Source: Pseudomonadota bacterium
GTDB lineage: Bacteria; Pseudomonadota; Gammaproteobacteria; CALCKW01
Assembly (NCBI GenBank): GCA_039196715.1
Contig: JBCCUP010000028.1
Coordinates: 1-56,940 of the forward strand
DNA: 56,940 nt
Direction: 5' to 3'
Below, one piece after another: positions 7,943 to 47,075 of the stretch (position 1 is the first letter of the stretch; each line of letters opens with the position of its first letter). A program made the position numbers and the translations under genes. The notes beneath the pieces were generated by a model. That model was not told where the DNA came from, searched no databases, and saw only the letters and a program-made list of their open reading frames with translations.

Positions 7943-9970
7943 TCACACCACCCGAACCAACCGATTGGCGTCGAGCATGGCCGCGTGGATGTCGCGCGGC
8001 GCCAGCGCGTCGCCGACGCGCAGCAGCAGGTAGTGGCCGTTGGGGTGGCTGTCAGCGGGTTGGGGTGCCAGGCGGACCATGGCCTCGGGGTCGATCTCGC
8101 CGAGGTTGGTGGCCGCGGGCACGAGCGTCTCGAACAGTTCGGTCACCGGGTCACTGCCGAAATCCGCGATGACGGTCTGCGCCCGGCGTGTGTGGCGGCT
8201 GCGGGCGAAGGCGTGGCGGAGGTGCACCACGCACTGGTTGCCCGCCGTTGTGACGTCGACCAGCGCGTGGTCGGTGACAATCTCAACCCCGGCGTTGGCC
8301 AGGTTGCGGAGGTAGACCGGCGCGTTCTGCCCACCGAGCCCGCGGCCGGCGTGGCGGTCCGGCGTGACGAAGATGACGGGCAGCCCCGCGGCTGACAGAC
8401 GGTCGGCGAGCGACAGCGCGGCGTGTTCGCCCACGCTGTCGTAGTTCAGCGTGTCGCCGTCCGTCCGCACGTGCCCGGCCAGTGCGTCCCAGACGGTCGG
8501 CAAGCCGAGGCCGAGCGGGTCGGCAGGCGCGGCCCCGGCGGCCACCACCACCGTGTCCGGTGTCAGCGCGCGCACGGTGTCGAGTTCGGCCAGGGTGTTG
8601 AGCTGCACGTCGACACCGAGCGCCGCGACTTCCGCTGCCAGCCAGTCGGTCACACCGATAAGGTCGGTGCGCCAGGCGCCCGCGGCGGCCAACCGCACCT
8701 GGCCACCGAGCCGGGCTTGCGCTTCGAGGAGGGTTACGCGGTGGCCGCGCAAGGCGAGTACGCGCGCGGCCTCGAGACCGGCCGGGCCACCACCGACCAC
8801 CACGGCACGTCGGGTGTGCGGTGCCGGTGCAATGCGTGGCGGCAGCGTCAGCTCGCGCCCAGTCGACACGTTCTGCACACAGAAGGTTTCGCGGCCACCG
8901 TAAATGCGGTCGAGGCAGTAGCCGGCCCCGACGCAAGGGCGCACCCGCTCGGCGTCGCCGCGGGCGAGCTTGTTGACGAGCTCCGGGTCGGCCATCTGCG
9001 GTCGGGTGAGGCCAGCGAGATCGAGGTAGCCCTGGCCCACCGCCCAGTTGGCGGTGGCCGGGTCCGAGAGCCGCGCGGCCTGCAGCGTGACCCGATTCGA
9101 CGCCTCGCGGACGCGGCGTGCAAGCTCGACGTACGGCGCCGCCGGAAACGCCATGCCGGGCATGTATTCGGTCAGCCCCATGTCGGTGCCACCGTAGGCG
9201 CCGTTGACGTTGATCAGGTCCACCGCGCCGTGTTGCCCGATCAGCGCGGCGAGCGCAACGCCGTCGTCGGCACTGAGCCCGCCCTCGTTCTCCTCGCTGA
9301 AGTTGCTGCGAAACGCGACAACGAAGTCAGGCCCCACGGCGTCACGGCAGGCCTCCAGCACCTCGAACAGCAGGCGCGCGCGGTTTTCGAGTGCGCCGCC
9401 GTAGGCGTCGGTGCGCGCGTTCGAGAGCGGTGAGAGAAACTGGCCGATCAGGTGACTCGAGCCGAGGATCTCCACGCCGTCGAGGCCGCCGTCCCGGCAG
9501 CGGCGCGCGGCGTCGGCGAAGGCCTGCGTGATGCGGCGCAGTTCGCGGGTGCTCAGCGCGTAGGGCATGGCGTGGTGGGCCGGGTCGCGCACCGCCGAGG
9601 GGCCGCGCGTCGGCAGCCAGTCGCCGCCGGTCGCGGTGGTGCGGCGGCCCATGTGGGTGATCTGGCAGACGGCGGCGGCGCCGTGCGCGTGCAGCGCGTC
9701 GGCCAAGGTACGAAAGGCCGGAACCACCGCGTCGTCGCCGACGTAGAGCTGGCCGTACACCGAGCCCGAGTCGCGCGACACGTTCGACGAGCCGCCGAAC
9801 ATGACAAGCCCGCAGCCGCCGCGCGCCTTCTCGGCCTGGTAGGCCACGTAGCGTGGCCCCGGCAGACCGCCCTCGGCGTAACCCGGGGCGTGTGCGGTCG
9901 ACACGACGCGGTTCTTCAGCGTGAGCCCGTTGACCGTCAGCGGCGACAGCAGCTCGCGGTAGGCGCTCAT
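7943..9970 (-). CDS. NADH:flavin oxidoreductase / 2,4-dienoyl-CoA reductase-type two-domain enzyme
   Basis: A 675-residue enzyme of the Old Yellow Enzyme branch that includes 2,4-dienoyl-CoA reductase, trimethylamine dehydrogenase and N-methylproline demethylase. An FMN TIM barrel (1 to about 340; ITHMGRR, QFLSP, RTDAYGG, LTRPQMADPELV) is followed by an iron-sulfur segment and a C-terminal FAD/NAD-binding module (VVGGGPAGLEAARVLALRGH from about 391). The cluster segment has Cys346, Cys352 and Cys364, but the second cysteine of the CxxCxxC pattern is Ala349. The ATG at 9970 gives the proper family N-terminus. Context with a dioxygenase and a hydrolase suggests catabolism of a methylated amine or betaine, as inference only. 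Confidence 0.88.
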   Translation of the reverse strand: MSAYRELLSPLTVNGLTLKNRVVSTAHAPGYAEGGLPGPRYVAYQAEKARGGCGLVMFGGSSNVSRDSGSVYGQLYVGDDAVVPAFRTLADALHAHGAAAVCQITHMGRRTTATGGDWLPTRGPSAVRDPAHHAMPYALSTRELRRITQAFADAARRCRDGGLDGVEILGSSHLIGQFLSPLSNARTDAYGGALENRARLLFEVLEACRDAVGPDFVVAFRSNFSEENEGGLSADDGVALAALIGQHGAVDLINVNGAYGGTDMGLTEYMPGMAFPAAPYVELARRVREASNRVTLQAARLSDPATANWAVGQGYLDLAGLTRPQMADPELVNKLARGDAERVRPCVGAGYCLDRIYGGRETFCVQNVSTGRELTLPPRIAPAPHTRRAVVVGGGPAGLEAARVLALRGHRVTLLEAQARLGGQVRLAAAGAWRTDLIGVTDWLAAEVAALGVDVQLNTLAELDTVRALTPDTVVVAAGAAPADPLGLGLPTVWDALAGHVRTDGDTLNYDSVGEHAALSLADRLSAAGLPVIFVTPDRHAGRGLGGQNAPVYLRNLANAGVEIVTDHALVDVTTAGNQCVVHLRHAFARSRHTRRAQTVIADFGSDPVTELFETLVPAATNLGEIDPEAMVRLAPQPADSHPNGHYLLLRVGDALAPRDIHAAMLDANRLVRVV

Positions 9971-39394: not shown

Positions 39395-40135
39395 TCAGAG
39401 GGTGTTCTGCCAGAGCAGACGGAGTGCCAGCAGCGTCAGCACCGCGAGGATGATGCGGTCGAAGGTGGCTTTGGGAATGCGGCGGCCGAGCCGGTCGCCG
39501 AGCGGCATGCCGAGCAGCAGGGGTAACACGCCGAGAGCGCTGTAGCCCGCACGTTCCCAGGTCATGATGCCAAGCGCGATCTGCATGGGCAGTTGGATCG
39601 CGGCCATCGCGAGGAAGAAGGTCGACAGCGTGAACACGAAGGTGTTGCGCGCGAGCCCGGCGGCGTTCAGGAAGGTCACCGAAACCGGGGCTGATATGCC
39701 AACTGCGCCCTGTAACACGCCGCCGGCGGTGCCAACGGGGAATGCCAGTCGGTCGACGAGCGGCGCGGGCAACGTCCAGCCCGGGTTGCGCAGACGAAAG
39801 CCGACGTACATGAGCACAACCAGCGCAACCGCGGTGGTCAGGACGCTCGCGCTCATGCCGGCGAGCGCGGCCGTGCCAATCCCGGCACCGACGACACCGG
39901 CGAGGGCGTAGCGCGTGAGAAACCCGCGTTCGGGGCGGTGGTGCCGGTAGTTCCAGACTTGCCACGCGTTCGACACCACGTTCGGAAACACGAACACCGC
40001 CACGGCGAAGGGCACGTCGACGAGGATCGCCATGATCGGCACGGCGAGGAACGGCGCGCCTGCACCGGTCGCGCCCTTCAACACCCCGCCGAGGCTGAAC
40101 GCCACGAAAACGAGGGCGAGGTGTTCCAGGGACAT
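39395..40135 (-). CDS. TauE/SafE (TSUP) family membrane exporter
   Basis: A 246-residue membrane protein of the TSUP (TauE/SafE/YfcA) family with about eight membrane segments. The two family repeats show GGVLKGATGAGAPFLAVPIMA near residue 18 and GGVLQGAVGISAPVSVTFL near 140. Members export sulfite, sulfoacetate or related organosulfur anions. It diverges from the sulfatase/alkylsulfatase operon 256 bases away, which supports a role in exporting sulfite, sulfate or a desulfurised product. That link is inference; the family call is firm. Confidence 0.9.
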   Translation of the reverse strand: MSLEHLALVFVAFSLGGVLKGATGAGAPFLAVPIMAILVDVPFAVAVFVFPNVVSNAWQVWNYRHHRPERGFLTRYALAGVVGAGIGTAALAGMSASVLTTAVALVVLMYVGFRLRNPGWTLPAPLVDRLAFPVGTAGGVLQGAVGISAPVSVTFLNAAGLARNTFVFTLSTFFLAMAAIQLPMQIALGIMTWERAGYSALGVLPLLLGMPLGDRLGRRIPKATFDRIILAVLTLLALRLLWQNTL

Positions 40136-40390
40136 GCGGGCGCGGCTCGGGGGGCGAAGCAGGGCTGGACAGGATACGGCATGGCGGCGTGCGGCCGCGA
40201 GCGCCCGCCGGCTCAGTTCGCGCGGGTGTCGCGCGGTTGCAAGCGGCCTGCGGCGACCGCCGAAGCGGCGACCATCGGCTTGTGGTGTTCTCGGGGTCCG
40301 GGGTGTCCGGTGCGGCAGACGGGTTCCGTGCGATCATGCGGCAGTGTGCCCTCGCGTTATGACAGAGGGATTGCACCGGGCGGAGCGTAC

Positions 40391-41821
40391 ATGGCCAACA
40401 CCATCGTGATCATGACAGACGAACTGCGGCGCGATTGCCTCGGGTGCTACAGGAACACGGTGGTGCAGACGCCCCACATCGACGCGCTGGCGGCGCGCGG
40501 TGCGCGCTTCGACTGCGCCTACACGCCGTCGCCGATCTGCGTGCCGGCGCGCGCGTCCGTCGCGACCGGGCGCCACGTCCACGAGACCCGCTGCTGGTCG
40601 AACGCGCAACCCTACGCGGGCGAACCCGCCAGTTGGCACCACGTCCTGCGCGATGCCGGGCAGCAGGTGCACTCCTTCGGCAAGCTGCATTTTCGCAGCG
40701 GCGCCGACGACAACGGCTTCACGCACGAGCACCACCCGCTGCACGTGGTTGGCGGCCAGGGCTGGGTGCACGGCCTGCTGCGCGACGAGGACGGTCTCTT
40801 CGACGCGTCGGGCTTTGCCGGACACATCGGCCCGGGCGAGGACCCGTACAGCGACTACGACACCCGCGTCTGTGACGCGGCGGTGCAGTGGATTGCCGGG
40901 CAGGGCGCCGCCGAGGGTGCTGCGCCGTGGTGCCTGTACATCTCCTTCCTGAGGCCGCACTACCCGCTGACCTGCCCGCCCGACTTCTACGGCCTCTACG
41001 ACCCGGCCGAGGTGCGCCTGCCGCGGCCCGCTCGGCTCGAGGGGCCCGAACAGCACCCGGTGCTGCAGTGGTTGCGTCACACCTGCGACTACGACGCGCC
41101 CTTCGACGACGCGAGCCGTCGGGTCGCGGTCGCGTCCTACTTCGGCCTGTGCTCCTTCGTCGACCACCTCGTCGGCCGGATCACCGGCGCGGTGTCAGCC
41201 GCCGGCCTCGACGACGACACCGCCGTGCTCTTCACCAGCGACCACGGCGAGTGCCTTGGCGACCGCGGCTTCTGGACCAAGATGGTGATGTTCGAGGAAT
41301 CGGCCGCCGTGCCCTTGATCCTCGCGGGCCCCGGTGTGACCCCCGGCACCTGCGATGCACCCGTCTCGCTGATCGACCTCTTCCCGACGGTGCTCGACGC
41401 GGCCGGGGTGCCGGCACCCGACGGCGCCTGCCCGCACGCGCGCTCGCTGTTCGACACCCTCGACGCGCCGCGGCACGACCGCCCGATCCTCTCGGAGTAC
41501 CACGACTACGGCGCCCAGACCGGCGTGTTCATGCTGCGCTTCGAGCGGTGGAAACTCGTGGTGTACTCGGGCTTTGCGGCGCAGCTGTTCGACCTCGACA
41601 GCGACCCGGACGAATTGCATGATGTGGCGGACGACCCGGGCAACGCCGCCGTGCTGGAGCAGCTGCACGCACACCTGCGCACGCTCGTCGACCCGGACGC
41701 TGCCAACGCCCAGGCCTTTGCCGACCAGGCGGCGCGCATCGACGCGCTCGGCGGGCGCGAGGCGATCAAGGCCATGCAGAACTACGACCACACCCCGGTG
41801 GCAACGCAGGAGGGCGCGTGA
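40391..41821 (+). CDS. Type I sulfatase (formylglycine-dependent)
   Basis: A 476-residue arylsulfatase/choline-sulfatase-like hydrolase that cleaves sulfate esters. Start is ATG 40391 (MANTIVIMTDELRRD), with no signal peptide, so apparently cytoplasmic. The formylglycine signature CVPAR is intact (Cys50, Arg54), and metal and substrate blocks FTSDHGECLGDRGFWTK (Asp284, His285) and MTDELRRDCLGCY are visible. The cysteine must be converted by a maturase (FGE or anSME), which is not encoded in the window. It overlaps the following hydrolase by one base (GTGATGG). The substrate ester is unknown. Confidence 0.92.
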   Translation: MANTIVIMTDELRRDCLGCYRNTVVQTPHIDALAARGARFDCAYTPSPICVPARASVATGRHVHETRCWSNAQPYAGEPASWHHVLRDAGQQVHSFGKLHFRSGADDNGFTHEHHPLHVVGGQGWVHGLLRDEDGLFDASGFAGHIGPGEDPYSDYDTRVCDAAVQWIAGQGAAEGAAPWCLYISFLRPHYPLTCPPDFYGLYDPAEVRLPRPARLEGPEQHPVLQWLRHTCDYDAPFDDASRRVAVASYFGLCSFVDHLVGRITGAVSAAGLDDDTAVLFTSDHGECLGDRGFWTKMVMFEESAAVPLILAGPGVTPGTCDAPVSLIDLFPTVLDAAGVPAPDGACPHARSLFDTLDAPRHDRPILSEYHDYGAQTGVFMLRFERWKLVVYSGFAAQLFDLDSDPDELHDVADDPGNAAVLEQLHAHLRTLVDPDAANAQAFADQAARIDALGGREAIKAMQNYDHTPVATQEGA

Positions 41822-43821
41822 TGGACGTGATTGAAACGGTCTGGATTCCGATGCCGGACGGCACGCGGCTCGCCGCGCGCTTGTGGTTGCCGGACGGTGC
41901 GCGCGAGGCGCCGGTGCCCTGCATCCTCGAGTACATCCCCTACCGGCGTCGCGACCGCACGCGCCTGCGCGACGAGGTCACCCACCCGCTCTTTGCCGAC
42001 GCCGGCTACGCCGCCATCCGCGTCGACCTGCGCGGTGCGGGCGACAGCGAGGGCGTGATGCTCGACGAATACGCCGACATCGAAACCGACGACGGCGTCA
42101 ACGTCGTCGCCTGGATTGCCGAGCAGCCCTGGTGCGACGGCAACGTCGGTATGTTCGGCAAGTCCTGGGGCGCCTACAACGCCTTCCAGGTCGCGGCCCG
42201 GCGGCCGCCCGCGCTCAAGGCCATCGCCCCGGTGATGGGCACCGACGACCGCTGGCTCGAGGACATCCACTTCTACGGCGGCGTGCTCGCGAGCGACAAC
42301 TTCTGGTGGGGCTCGATCATGCAGCTCTACAACGCGATGCCGCCGGACCCGGCGATCGTCGGCGAGCGCTGGCGCGACATGTGGCGCGAGCGCCTCGACG
42401 CCATGACCTACTGGCCCGCGATGTGGCTCGAGCACCAGACCCGCGACGCGATGTGGCGGCGCGGGTCGATCTCGGAGAACTACGACGACATCACCATTCC
42501 TGTGTACTTCTTCGGCGGCTGGGCCGATCTCTTTCGCGACACCCCGTTCCGCATCGCCGAGCACCTCACCGGCCCGCTCAAGGTGCTGATGGGCCCGTGG
42601 GCCCACCTCTACCCGCACGAGGGCATCCCGGGGCCGCGCATGGATTTCACCCGCGAGATCATCCGCTTCTGGGACCACTGCCTGAAAGGCATTGACACCG
42701 GTCTGATGGACGAGCCACCCTTGCGCTTCTACCTGCAGGACAGCGTTGCCCCGGCCGGTACGCACAAGCAGCGCACCGGCACCTGGGTGGAGGAGGCGAC
42801 GTGGCCGTCGCCCAACGTCAGCACACAGACGCTCTGGCTCAACGCCGCCAGCCTCGGCAGCGCGCCGGCCGAGGGCGCACCGATGGCCATTTGCTCGCCG
42901 CAGACCTTCGGCCAGTCGGGCGGCGACATGTGCTCGTTTGCGATACCGGGCGACATGCCGAGCGATTGCCGCATCGACGCGGGCGGCGCGCTGGGCTTTG
43001 CCGGCCAGCCGGTCGCCGAGCCTCTCGACATCCTCGGCCAGCCCTCGCTCGAGCTGAGCCTCAGCGCCGACCAACCGCAGGGCTTTGTCGCGGTGCTGCT
43101 GATCGACCAGGCGCCGGACGGCGCGCAGACGCTGATCTCGCGCGGCTACGCCAACCTCATGCACCGGCACTCGGACACCGACCCGACGCCTGTGGTGCCG
43201 GGCGAGGTCATGACCATCCACGTGCCGCTGCACGGTGTCGGGCACCGCCTCGCCGTCGGCCACGCGTTGGTGGTACAGGTCGCCTCGACCTACTGGCCGG
43301 TGCTCTGGCCCGCGCCCGAGCCGGTCACGCTGACGCTGCAACCGGGCCGCTCGCGCTTGCACCTGCCGACCCGCGCCGCCGTCGACGACAACCCGCGGCC
43401 GATGCCCGAGCCGCCGCGGCGCACGCAGAAGCGCCCGATGACGAAGGTGCGCGACGGCGCCATGGAGCGCTCGCTGCACACCGACCTGACCACCGGCGAG
43501 CACCGCACACGCTTCTACCTCGACGGTGGCGTGTTCGGCCCGATCGGGCGGTTGCGGCTCGACGACACCGGCACCGAGATGGGTGACATCTCCGACCGCG
43601 TGTACCGCATCACCGCCGACGACCCGCTGTCCTGCCGCGCGACCATGGACCAGGAGAGCCACTTCTGCCGCGAGGACTGGGACGCCCGGATCAAGACCAC
43701 GACGGAAATGACCGCGAGCCGCACCGCCTTCCATCTGCGCGCCAGTGTGACCTGCTGGGACGGGGACACCGTCTTCCACACGGTCGAGTGGGAACACGAC
43801 ATCCCCCGCAACGGTATGTGA
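41821..43821 (+). CDS. CocE/NonD family hydrolase (X-Pro dipeptidyl-peptidase-like)
   Basis: A 666-residue serine hydrolase of the S15/CocE group. The N-terminal alpha/beta hydrolase half has the nucleophile Ser115 in GKSWG, with Asp in GGWADLF and His in GPWAHLYPHEG as probable triad partners; the C-terminal jelly-roll domain is visible from about residue 420 (FVAVLLIDQAPDG, GHALVVQVASTYWPV). Family members hydrolyse cocaine esters, glutaryl-7-ACA or dipeptides. Here it is translationally coupled to a sulfatase, so it likely cleaves an ester or amide in the same substrate. No signal peptide. Confidence 0.91.
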   Translation: MDVIETVWIPMPDGTRLAARLWLPDGAREAPVPCILEYIPYRRRDRTRLRDEVTHPLFADAGYAAIRVDLRGAGDSEGVMLDEYADIETDDGVNVVAWIAEQPWCDGNVGMFGKSWGAYNAFQVAARRPPALKAIAPVMGTDDRWLEDIHFYGGVLASDNFWWGSIMQLYNAMPPDPAIVGERWRDMWRERLDAMTYWPAMWLEHQTRDAMWRRGSISENYDDITIPVYFFGGWADLFRDTPFRIAEHLTGPLKVLMGPWAHLYPHEGIPGPRMDFTREIIRFWDHCLKGIDTGLMDEPPLRFYLQDSVAPAGTHKQRTGTWVEEATWPSPNVSTQTLWLNAASLGSAPAEGAPMAICSPQTFGQSGGDMCSFAIPGDMPSDCRIDAGGALGFAGQPVAEPLDILGQPSLELSLSADQPQGFVAVLLIDQAPDGAQTLISRGYANLMHRHSDTDPTPVVPGEVMTIHVPLHGVGHRLAVGHALVVQVASTYWPVLWPAPEPVTLTLQPGRSRLHLPTRAAVDDNPRPMPEPPRRTQKRPMTKVRDGAMERSLHTDLTTGEHRTRFYLDGGVFGPIGRLRLDDTGTEMGDISDRVYRITADDPLSCRATMDQESHFCREDWDARIKTTTEMTASRTAFHLRASVTCWDGDTVFHTVEWEHDIPRNGM

Positions 43822-43958
43822 CCGGGCCGGCGCACCGGTGGTCCGGCACACCGGCCGGGCGGCGTTCCGCGGCGCGCTGCACCCAGCAGCACGCCGCGCG
43901 CGCCGGGCTTGTGTAGGCTAGGGCCCAGCCGACCTTCAACCCGTGCACAGGTTTTTCG

Positions 43959-44804
43959 ATGAGCGCCTTCCCCGAGTTCGCCGCGACCGCGACCACCCAC
44001 TCACTGACCGCCGAGGGCGTCACCATGCGCGTCGTGGTCGACGGCACCGGGCCCGACATCGTCTTCATCCCGGGCGGCGACCAGACCGCCGAGGGCTACT
44101 CGCAGCAGTTTGCGTTGTTGTCGCAGCACTTCCGCTGCGTGTCCTACGACCCACGCGGCGCGGGTGAAACCACGTCACCGCCTGCGCCCTGGACCATGGG
44201 CGACTACGCGCGCGACTGCGCCGCGGTGATCGATGCTTTCTGTGAGGGGTCAGCGGTGGTCTGCGGGCTGTCGCTCGGCGGCCTGGTGACGCAGCAGGTG
44301 GCGATCGATTTCCCGGATAAGGTCAGGCTTGCGATACCGATGGGCACCGCGGCCTACATCGACGGCTTCACACGCGACTGGATGCAGGCCGAGATCGACA
44401 TCCGCAAGGCCGGCATCGAGCTGCCGGACTCTTTTCTCGCGCCGCACTACGCGCCCTTTGCATTTCCGGCCAAGGCGCTGCACGACCCGGCGCTCTGGGC
44501 CGAGATCAAGCCGGCCTACACCACACGTTTTGCCAACCGTGACCCGAAGGACCTGATCGACCAGTGGCAGGCCTGTCTCGACTTCGATTGCCGCGAGGGC
44601 CTCAAGACCTGCCCGGTGCCGATGCACGTGATCGCCTTCTCCGAAGACGTGCAGACCGCGCCGTCGATGTGCCAAGTGGTGTCCGACCTCGCGCCGAAGG
44701 GCGTCTTCCACGAGATCCCGGGCCTCGGTCATGTGTCGATGACGCGCCACCGCCCGGACGTGGTTGCAGCCAAGATCCGCGACATCGTCGAGGCGGCGGC
44801 GTGA
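43959..44804 (+). CDS. Alpha/beta hydrolase
   Basis: A 281-residue alpha/beta hydrolase with nucleophile Ser105 in GLSLGG and catalytic His258 in GLGHVSMTRH; an acidic residue sits near FSEDVQTA. The N-terminal VVVDGTGPDIVFIPGG and the SYDPRGAGETT strand-loop are typical of 3-oxoadipate enol-lactonase or haloperoxidase-type hydrolases. It follows the CocE gene after 137 bases and overlaps the alkylsulfatase start by four bases (GTGA), so the last two genes are coupled. The substrate is unknown but presumably belongs to the sulfate-ester pathway. Confidence 0.9.
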   Translation: MSAFPEFAATATTHSLTAEGVTMRVVVDGTGPDIVFIPGGDQTAEGYSQQFALLSQHFRCVSYDPRGAGETTSPPAPWTMGDYARDCAAVIDAFCEGSAVVCGLSLGGLVTQQVAIDFPDKVRLAIPMGTAAYIDGFTRDWMQAEIDIRKAGIELPDSFLAPHYAPFAFPAKALHDPALWAEIKPAYTTRFANRDPKDLIDQWQACLDFDCREGLKTCPVPMHVIAFSEDVQTAPSMCQVVSDLAPKGVFHEIPGLGHVSMTRHRPDVVAAKIRDIVEAAA

Positions 44805-46639
44805 CCGACACCGTCTACCCCGGCACGCTGGCCCACAACCGGGCCTTTGCGGCCCGCCTGCCGCTCGACGACCCGCAGCGGCTCGCCGACGCACAACGCG
44901 GTTGGCTGGCCGCATTGCCTGGCCCCGTGACGCGAGCCGACGGCGGCGTGGCCTGGGACCTCGGCTGGTTCGATTTTCTCGACGGGCCCTGCCCGGATAC
45001 CGTCAACCCGTCGCTCTGGCGGCACGCGCAGCTGAACGCGCTCAGCGGGCTGTTCGAAGTGTGCTACGGCGTCTGGCAACTCCGCGCCTGCGACTACGCC
45101 AACATGACCGTCGTGCGCGGCGACACCGGCTGGATCCTCATCGACCCGTTGATGACCGCCGAGACCGCGGCGGCGGCGCTGCAGCTGGTCAACGACACGC
45201 TCGGCGTCCGCCCGGTCAGCGCGGTGCTGGTGACGCACACCCACCCCGACCATTTCGGTGGCCTGCGCGGCGTGACCGCCGACAACCCGTCGATCACCGT
45301 GCCCGACCAGTTCATGAATTTCGTTGCGTCCGAGGGCGTGCTCGGCGGCAACCACACCTCGCGCCGCGCGGTGGACCAGTTCGGCATCGCGTTGCCGATG
45401 GGGCCGACCGGCATGGTCGACGGCGGCATCGGCAAGACCGTGGCGCGTGGCACGCGCGGCTTCGTCGTCCCGACCGACGTGGTTTGCGAGACCGGCGAGA
45501 CGCGCACGCTCGACGGCGTGCGTTTCGAATTTCTGATGGCGTCGGGCACCGAGGCGCCGGCAGAGTTCACCTTCCTGTTGCCCGAGTTCGGCGTGCTCTG
45601 CATGGCCGAAGTGTGCACCCAAACCCTGCACAACGTGCTGACGCCCCGCGGTGCCGAAGTCCGCGACCCTTTGCTCTGGGCCCGCGTGATCGACGAGGCG
45701 CTGTGCCGTTTCGGCGCGCGCACCCACACGCTGATCAACAGCCACAACTGGCCGGTCTGGGGCGAGGCGGCGGTCGCGCAGTTTCTGCTCGAGCAGCGTG
45801 ACATCTACAAATACACCCACGACCAGACGCTGCGTCTCGCGAACCACGGCCACGGGCCCGACGAGATCGCCGCCAAATTGGCCGAGCCGGATTTCCTCGC
45901 CAGCGCACTGCACGCGCGCGGCTACTACGGCACGCTCGCGTTCAACGCCCGCGCGACCTACCAGAAGTATTACGGCTGTTTCGACGGCCGGCCGGTGAGC
46001 CTCAACCCGCTGCCGCCGGAGACCCTCGGCGCGCACTACCTCGCCGCGCTCGGCGGCGTCGAGCGCGTGCTCGAGCTGGCGCGCGAGGCCGTCGCGGGCG
46101 ACGCGCTGCAGTGGGCGGCGACGCTGCTGAGCCACGCGGTGTTCGCCGGTGAGGTGGACGCCAAAGCACCGCTCGCGGCGGTGTACCGCAACCTCGCCTA
46201 CCGCGAGGAGAGCGGTATCATGCGCAACATCTACCTCGCCGGTGCACAGGAACTCGACGCAGGTGTCAAAGCCCTGCCGAGTGCCGGTGGGCGCAACAGC
46301 GACCTCGCCGCGGTGCTCGGATTGCAAGACTGGTTCGACGCCTTCGCGGTGCGGCTGAACCCCGAGCGCGCCCGGGATGTGACACTGGCGATCCGGCTGA
46401 TCGTCGACGGCACGCCGGTGACGGTCACGGTGGCGCGGCAAACCGAATTCGCGCGGGTCGACGACGCGCTGTCGGCGGTCGACGCGACGGTCACCCTGAG
46501 CCAGGCCGAGCTTGAGCAGCTCGCGGCCGGCCAGTGTGATGCGGCGGCGCTGAACGTGGAGGGTGACGCAGACCGGGTGGGCGCGTGGCTCGCGCTGCAC
46601 GACCGCTTCGACCTCTGGTTCAACATCGCGACGCCCTGA
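44801..46639 (+). CDS. SdsA1-type alkyl sulfatase (metallo-beta-lactamase fold)
   Basis: A 612-residue zinc-dependent alkylsulfatase of the SdsA1/BDS1 (linear primary alkylsulfatase) family, which hydrolyses alkyl sulfates such as dodecyl sulfate. GTG 44801 overlaps the preceding TGA. The metal motif THTHPDHFGG gives His146, His148, Asp150 and His151. Further family blocks are LCMAEVCTQTLHNVLTPRGAEVRDPLLW, the zinc-site WPVWGEAAVAQFLLEQRD, and the C-terminal SCP2-like domain (about residue 500 on). No signal peptide is visible, unlike secreted SdsA1, so alkyl sulfates would be hydrolysed inside the cell. Confidence 0.93.
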   Translation: MTDTVYPGTLAHNRAFAARLPLDDPQRLADAQRGWLAALPGPVTRADGGVAWDLGWFDFLDGPCPDTVNPSLWRHAQLNALSGLFEVCYGVWQLRACDYANMTVVRGDTGWILIDPLMTAETAAAALQLVNDTLGVRPVSAVLVTHTHPDHFGGLRGVTADNPSITVPDQFMNFVASEGVLGGNHTSRRAVDQFGIALPMGPTGMVDGGIGKTVARGTRGFVVPTDVVCETGETRTLDGVRFEFLMASGTEAPAEFTFLLPEFGVLCMAEVCTQTLHNVLTPRGAEVRDPLLWARVIDEALCRFGARTHTLINSHNWPVWGEAAVAQFLLEQRDIYKYTHDQTLRLANHGHGPDEIAAKLAEPDFLASALHARGYYGTLAFNARATYQKYYGCFDGRPVSLNPLPPETLGAHYLAALGGVERVLELAREAVAGDALQWAATLLSHAVFAGEVDAKAPLAAVYRNLAYREESGIMRNIYLAGAQELDAGVKALPSAGGRNSDLAAVLGLQDWFDAFAVRLNPERARDVTLAIRLIVDGTPVTVTVARQTEFARVDDALSAVDATVTLSQAELEQLAAGQCDAAALNVEGDADRVGAWLALHDRFDLWFNIATP

Positions 46640-46739: not shown

Positions 46740-47075
46740 GTGACGCATTTCATCGACGCGCTGACCAAGACCTTCGATTTTCAGGGGCGCACCACGCGGA
46801 CCGGCTACTGGATGTTCATCCTCGTCTACGTGATCGTGTACTTCGGCCTCGCCTTTCTCGTCGGTGGGTCGGACGACAGTCTGACGGCGGCGGACGTGTT
46901 CTCCCTGCTGTTGCTGGTCACCTCGATCAGCGTGACTGCGCGCCGGCTGCACGACATCGGCCGCAGCGGCTGGTGGCAGCTGATCAGCTTCATCCCGTTG
47001 GTGGGGTGGCTTGTGCTGATCTACTTCATGGTCCAGCCGAGCGAGGGCGACAACCGCTTCGGCCCGGCGCCCTGA
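46740..47075 (+). CDS. DUF805 family membrane protein
   Basis: A 111-residue inner-membrane protein of the DUF805 family. It shows the typical N-terminus (FDFQGRTTRTGYWMF) and the conserved SVTARRLHDIGRSGWWQL, with three membrane segments (about 22-42, 50-66, 75-96). It begins with GTG 46740 (MTHFIDAL). Such proteins occur widely without assigned function. It stands alone downstream of the alkylsulfatase and converges with a lipoprotein gene. Confidence 0.93.
   Translation: MTHFIDALTKTFDFQGRTTRTGYWMFILVYVIVYFGLAFLVGGSDDSLTAADVFSLLLLVTSISVTARRLHDIGRSGWWQLISFIPLVGWLVLIYFMVQPSEGDNRFGPAP

Follow-up and report, generated by a model that had tools for sequence, protein, structure and literature searches.

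Class I formylglycine-dependent sulfatases hydrolyze sulfate monoesters by S–O cleavage through their formylglycine residue, and SdsA1-type enzymes hydrolyze alkyl sulfates at a binuclear metal site; in both cases, sulfate is released. The SdsA1-type enzymes are classic scavengers of sulfur and carbon from alkyl sulfates. A described genomic context for an alkylsulfatase is the SLF module, in which the neighbors are genes for alcohol and aldehyde oxidation (PMC10779009). Among the formylglycine enzymes, choline sulfatase owes its specificity for choline to Glu386 and to a quaternary-ammonium clamp of Trp129 and His145 (PMC5870055, PMC9063841). The closest functional precedent for the locus described here is provided by the acesulfame clusters of Shinella and Bosea/Chelatococcus, in which a TauE/SafE exporter and an amidase accompany a cytoplasmic sulfatase of either the formylglycine or the metallo-β-lactamase type. 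On this one substrate, either sulfatase fold can do the work of the other, each type occurring in different strains; the exporter has been proposed to remove sulfamate, not sulfate (PMC10413263, PMC11500405).

The window analyzed here (56,940 nt) is the whole of one contig (C28) of a draft genome of 4.95 Mb (169 contigs, 96% complete). It contains genes for a formylglycine sulfatase (SULF), a CocE-type hydrolase (COCE), an α/β hydrolase (ABH), and an SdsA1-type alkylsulfatase (MBL), with a TauE/SafE gene diverging from them (Table 1).

Table 1. Features of the hydrolase cluster and its flanks, in window coordinates
Feature	Position	Strand	Basis or remark
TauE: TauE/SafE (TSUP) family membrane protein, divergent	39395-40135	-	PF01925 4.2e-28
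Divergent intergenic region, 255 nt	40136-40390		Imperfect inverted repeat 40193-40208/40233-40248
SULF: formylglycine-dependent (class I) sulfatase, 476 aa	40391-41821	+	PF00884 7.2e-40
COCE: CocE/NonD (S15) ester/amide hydrolase, 667 aa from GTG	41818-43821	+	TIGR00976, PF02129 + PF08530
Hairpin-rich gap COCE/ABH, 137 nt	43822-43958	+	Folding, inverted repeats
ABH: alpha/beta hydrolase (Abhydrolase_6), 281 aa	43959-44804	+	PF12697 1.4e-20
MBL: SdsA1/Pisa1-type metallo-beta-lactamase-fold alkylsulfatase, 612 aa	44801-46639	+	PF14863 and PF14864, 4AV7, 2CFU
DUF805	46740-47075	Same as MBL	100 nt after MBL

A preliminary description of these genes had recognized two mechanistically different sulfatases, two esterases, and a divergent TSUP gene, and profile and structure–sequence matches bear out these families. 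It had also called the hydrolase genes tightly linked, with overlaps of one and four bases. The gene order, the coordinates, and both overlaps stand: SULF and COCE overlap by 1 nt if COCE starts at ATG 41821 and by 4 nt if it starts at GTG 41818, and ABH and MBL overlap by 4 nt. The linkage is not uniformly tight, however, because of the gap between COCE and ABH, and the genes are thus better described as two translationally coupled pairs than as one tight quartet. The gap folds more stably than shuffled sequences (minimum free energy of -78 versus -68.4 kcal/mol, z -2.2) and has strong hairpins and inverted repeats, ending in GTTTTTCG directly before the ABH start. A consensus scan of the divergent intergenic region gave no match to a sigma-70-like promoter. 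The genes are real and probably functional, and a single operon of all four hydrolase genes is plausible. The genome has 19 PF00884-like sulfatase loci, as counted from a genome-wide profile search table, and a single SdsA1-type gene of full length; the chance that the latter would lie three or fewer genes from a formylglycine sulfatase is estimated at roughly 2%, assuming ~4,600 genes. Clustering and overlaps together exceed random expectation, although the evidence is short of overwhelming.

SULF has the C-x-P-x-R motif of the class I enzymes (C50-V-P-A-R54) and their metal and sulfate ligands. Its closest solved relative is the choline sulfatase BetC (SmCS, PDB 6FNY; 216 bits). Residue mapping places D10, N71, K98, H100, H190, D284, H285, and K297 of SULF on D14, N75, K102, H104, H201, D296, H297, and K309 of SmCS, and the core catalytic residues are all kept except Gln15, which is Glu in SULF. 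The choline-binding residues, in contrast, are changed: Tyr123 is replaced by Val, Glu386 by Tyr, and Trp142-Trp143-Tyr144-His145 by Gly-Leu-Phe-Asp, so that Trp129 of the clamp is retained but its partner His145 is Asp. These residues, together with a TIGR03417 (choline sulfatase) score of 279 bits against a curated cut-off of 433, rule out SULF as a choline sulfatase. By family, SULF should cleave the S–O bond of a sulfate monoester. It can be matured because the genome encodes a formylglycine-generating enzyme (contig C13, 237 bits) with the active-site cysteine pair GGSFLCHKSYC; a search for such a maturase had been suggested in the preliminary description. The nearest relatives of SULF, at 55–62% identity, come from Alphaproteobacteria and group with it in a clade with 100/100 support, and no other gene of the cluster occurs in their neighborhoods (L015–L019). 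Matches at E <1e-100 were found in only 3 of the 369 genomes of the class sample, and the same-genus genomes, apart from that of the window, gave no such match. In the Nitratireductor metagenome-assembled genome (L017, 168-2803), 32 nt separate the end of an M20 peptidase gene from the SULF orthologue downstream; none adjoins the orthologues in L015, L016, L018, or L019.

MBL has all three domains of the SdsA1 type (PF00753, Lactamase_B; PF14863, Alkyl_sulf_dimr; PF14864, Alkyl_sulf_C) and matches both the sec-alkylsulfatase 4AV7 (446 bits, 1.6e-132) and SdsA1 itself (2CFU; 421 bits, 5.5e-125). It aligns end to end with these enzymes, and the metal-site motifs are conserved: THTHPDH (145–151), the glutamates in GTEAPAE and MAEVC, and SHNWPVWG. 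From its family, it should hydrolyze an alkyl sulfate to sulfate. It differs from the SdsA1, Pisa1, and SlfS alkylsulfatases in lacking a signal peptide, and its neighbors are not the alcohol and aldehyde oxidation genes of the SLF module (PMC10779009). As the preliminary description had noted for both sulfatases, neither SULF nor MBL has a signal-peptide-like stretch at its N-terminus, and each aligns to characterized enzymes from near its first residues. One same-genus genome carries an MBL orthologue (62%), which stands alone; its surroundings contain no other gene of the cluster (L065). On a Rhodococcus plasmid (L091), an SdsA1-type alkylsulfatase gene adjoins genes for an MFS transporter and a member of the formylglycine-generating-enzyme family.

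The two remaining enzymes, which also have no signal peptide, are predicted serine hydrolases, whose Ser-Asp-His triads should act on ester or amide bonds. COCE has the Peptidase_S15 and PepX_C profiles and scores 234 bits against TIGR00976 (cut-off 66.3), and its triad (S116/D237/H263) is invariant in 23 sequences. Its fold family and triad positions are those of cocaine esterase CocE (PDB 1JU3), but the match to that enzyme is in two separate pieces only, and its nearer relatives adjoin peptide transporters. ABH is nearest to BpoC and PcaD-like enzymes, with a triad (S105/D230/H258) that is invariant across orthologues. Orthologues of COCE (68–80%) and ABH (72–84%) occur in one other family (f223), probably the Rhodobacteraceae, because the COCE of Ruegeria sp. 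AD91A falls in the same clade. More distant relatives of COCE (45–47%) also lie behind peptide-type ABC transporters, and those of ABH (56–62%) are near trimethylamine-methyltransferase-like genes (PF06253 relatives), with dimethylglycine-dehydrogenase-like genes as well in one distant locus (L179).

In the other family, COCE and ABH belong to a conserved module (L140, 1383-16770, and L168–L177) that comprises an XRE-cupin regulator, a Dpp-type peptide ABC transporter (DppABCDF; SBP_bac_5/oligo_HPY), COCE, a second CocE gene (CocE2), ABH, and usually an M81/MlrC peptidase. The order DppF-COCE-CocE2-ABH is found in 10 of the 14 retrieved loci, usually with the regulator, and the peptidase lies beside ABH in 8 of the 14; in one locus (L175), a further gene separates CocE2 from ABH. 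The DppF and COCE frames share 4 nt, as those of ABH and MlrC can also do. The window thus resembles the module in the orthology, order, and overlap style of COCE and ABH. It differs in having neither the importer nor CocE2, for which reasons we do not count the cluster as a member of the module, nor the peptidase; the module in turn has no sulfatases and no TauE. SULF, MBL, and TauE occur in none of the 14 loci, nor does any sulfatase related to SULF or MBL. The two sulfatase genes of the window sit at what are the DppF/COCE and ABH/MlrC junctions in the relatives, and CocE2 falls where the window has its 137-nt gap; a blastn search of the gap at word size 7 returned, among the matches listed, only short, chance-like ones, and a CocE2 remnant is rejected. 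Elsewhere in the genome, nothing closely resembles the donor DppA (best 28%), and an MlrC homologue (44%) is unlinked to the cluster. In the COCE tree, the window protein groups with those of L168 and L171 (99/98), nested inside the clade of the module, which indicates horizontal acquisition. From this conserved context, the substrate of COCE and ABH would be peptide-like or an ester and would enter through a Dpp-type transporter. A targeted literature search found no paper on a CocE-MlrC-ABC module. Some module loci (L140, L169) have a gene for an OYE-type NADH:flavin oxidoreductase nearby; the window encodes an NADH:flavin oxidoreductase at 7943-9970 (-), 32 kb from COCE, that is ~41% identical to the enzyme encoded next to COCE in both Ruegeria and L169.

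TauE matches the TSUP profile over its full length (99 bits, positions 2–237 of the 237 in PF01925), and its role as an exporter, putatively of sulfite or sulfonate, is inferred from its family. Other same-genus genomes have no close orthologue (best 26–31%), and its closest plasmid relative has no sulfatase beside it. It is also not a native neighbor of acnB, because TauE does not lie beside acnB in the same-genus genomes, whose acnB neighborhoods lack TauE and the hydrolase cluster alike. We know of no TauE for which sulfate is a waste product. Because SULF and MBL should release sulfate rather than sulfite, an exporter of the sulfite type is not required. The acesulfame clusters, to which the combination of a cytoplasmic sulfatase, an amide-cleaving hydrolase, and TauE/SafE invites comparison, are not of the same kind. 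Their hydrolase is an amidase-signature enzyme, unlike COCE and ABH, their metallo-β-lactamase gene has 852 nt (284 codons) and is not of the three-domain SdsA1 type, and they have an ABC importer and a LysR gene (PMC11500405, PMC10413263). In the window cluster, there is no amidase-signature (ANSA amidase) gene and no importer. These differences in hydrolase class, sulfatase type, and transport set the cluster apart from the acesulfame type, and acesulfame degradation is rejected as its function.

The preliminary description had rightly pointed out that cytoplasmic sulfatases call for an importer of the intact substrate and that none adjoins the cluster. A TRAP transporter (DctP, DctM) is encoded at the contig start (86-2947, +), 37 kb away, and nothing ties it to these genes. 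Several other sulfatases of the genome do lie beside tripartite tricarboxylate transporters (TTTs) or ABC importers. In one block (L071, C21:35000-50000), MarR, sulfatase, and MBL-fold genes face TctC-TctB-TctA and a second sulfatase; the block includes a sulfatase 46% identical to SULF and matches an arrangement on a plasmid of Sulfitobacter sp. SK012. Its layout points to cytoplasmic sulfatases fed by TTTs. On contig C2, TctA and TctC adjoin a sulfatase, and on C130, a sulfatase accompanies an ABC set resembling an amino acid importer. In Paracoccus seriniphilus and Sulfitobacter (L098, L102), the gene after a TTT-linked sulfatase encodes an FAD-linked oxidase, which suggests that the substrates are hydroxycarboxylic acids esterified with sulfate.

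What, then, might the four enzymes do together? The preliminary description had proposed a single pathway in which SULF, COCE, ABH, and MBL dismantle an imported compound that is both a sulfate ester and an acyl ester or amide, and the anion leaves through TauE. The frame overlaps on both sides of the COCE-ABH pair suggest that co-expression has been selected for, as one would expect more readily of a single pathway than of a chance mosaic. In addition, every enzyme is cytoplasmic, the acesulfame clusters unite a sulfatase, an amidase, and TauE/SafE (PMC10413263, PMC11500405), and the SULF orthologue of Nitratireductor lies close behind an M20 peptidase gene. But the conserved context of COCE and ABH is free of sulfatases and has a peptide-type importer; the preliminary description had itself held that its proposal would fail if homologous loci had an adjacent transporter for substrates lacking sulfate, and Dpp-type transporters beside COCE and ABH are largely of this sort. 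Moreover, SULF and MBL are found without the other genes, two sulfatases would be redundant for one sulfate ester, the products offer TauE no obvious cargo, and no importer is adjacent. Conservation of the neighborhood, which had been suggested as a check, is lacking: in the collections searched, the four-gene set was found in one genome only. We therefore consider the proposal unlikely and set it aside. A common substrate for the sulfatases and COCE/ABH is possible, but the comparative context gives it no backing. A variant, in which sulfatases grafted onto a peptide/ester module would form a new cytoplasmic pathway, with formylglycine and SdsA1-type sulfatases and two serine hydrolases acting on one doubly esterified organosulfate, seems to us quite improbable.

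Two other readings dispense with the shared molecule. SULF and MBL could be broad sulfate-ester hydrolases that scavenge sulfur when sulfate is limiting; COCE and ABH would then be passengers or esterases of general use. The abundance of sulfatase loci in this genome, several of them by importers, and the scavenging role usual for SdsA1-type enzymes agree with this, but neither a sulfur-limitation regulator nor a sulfate assimilation gene adjoins the cluster and the divergent gene is an exporter, and we regard this reading, too, as doubtful. Alternatively, SULF-COCE and ABH-MBL could be independent transcription units that are neighbors by chance, as the gap and its hairpins before the ABH start might suggest. 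A consensus scan, however, reported no terminator in the gap, and the proximity of COCE to ABH is inherited from the donor module, which implies one unit in the ancestors. This makes two chance neighbors very unlikely.

The explanation that we favor, with some reserve, is that the cluster is probably a mosaic accessory set of hydrolases that act in the cytoplasm on small esters taken up by the cell. It would not be a conserved pathway for a single sulfated ester, because COCE and ABH derive from a widespread peptide/ester-uptake module in whose loci no sulfatase was found. In the simplest history, whose order of events we infer, a COCE-ABH pair would have been gained, probably from a Rhodobacteraceae-like donor in which it served a peptide/ester uptake-and-hydrolysis module with a Dpp-type importer, CocE2, and often MlrC. 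The pair would then have lost importer, CocE2, and MlrC, and SULF and MBL would have joined at its flanks, each becoming translationally coupled to one member. Such a mosaic would be recent; the arrangement was found in one genome only in the collections searched, which are a sample, and intermediate arrangements may exist beyond them. In the cell, cytoplasmic hydrolysis of imported small organic sulfates would yield sulfate plus an alcohol or acid, and COCE and ABH would cut acyl ester or amide bonds, but sulfatases and esterases need not act on one molecule.

In general, this case shows that tight gene overlap can imply a pathway to which comparative context gives no backing. The comparison has also brought to light cytoplasmic sulfatases linked to TTTs in the same genome. 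The more interesting lead, however, lies outside the window cluster, in the Dpp-CocE-CocE2-ABH-MlrC genes of the relatives, a conserved and apparently undescribed module for uptake and hydrolysis.
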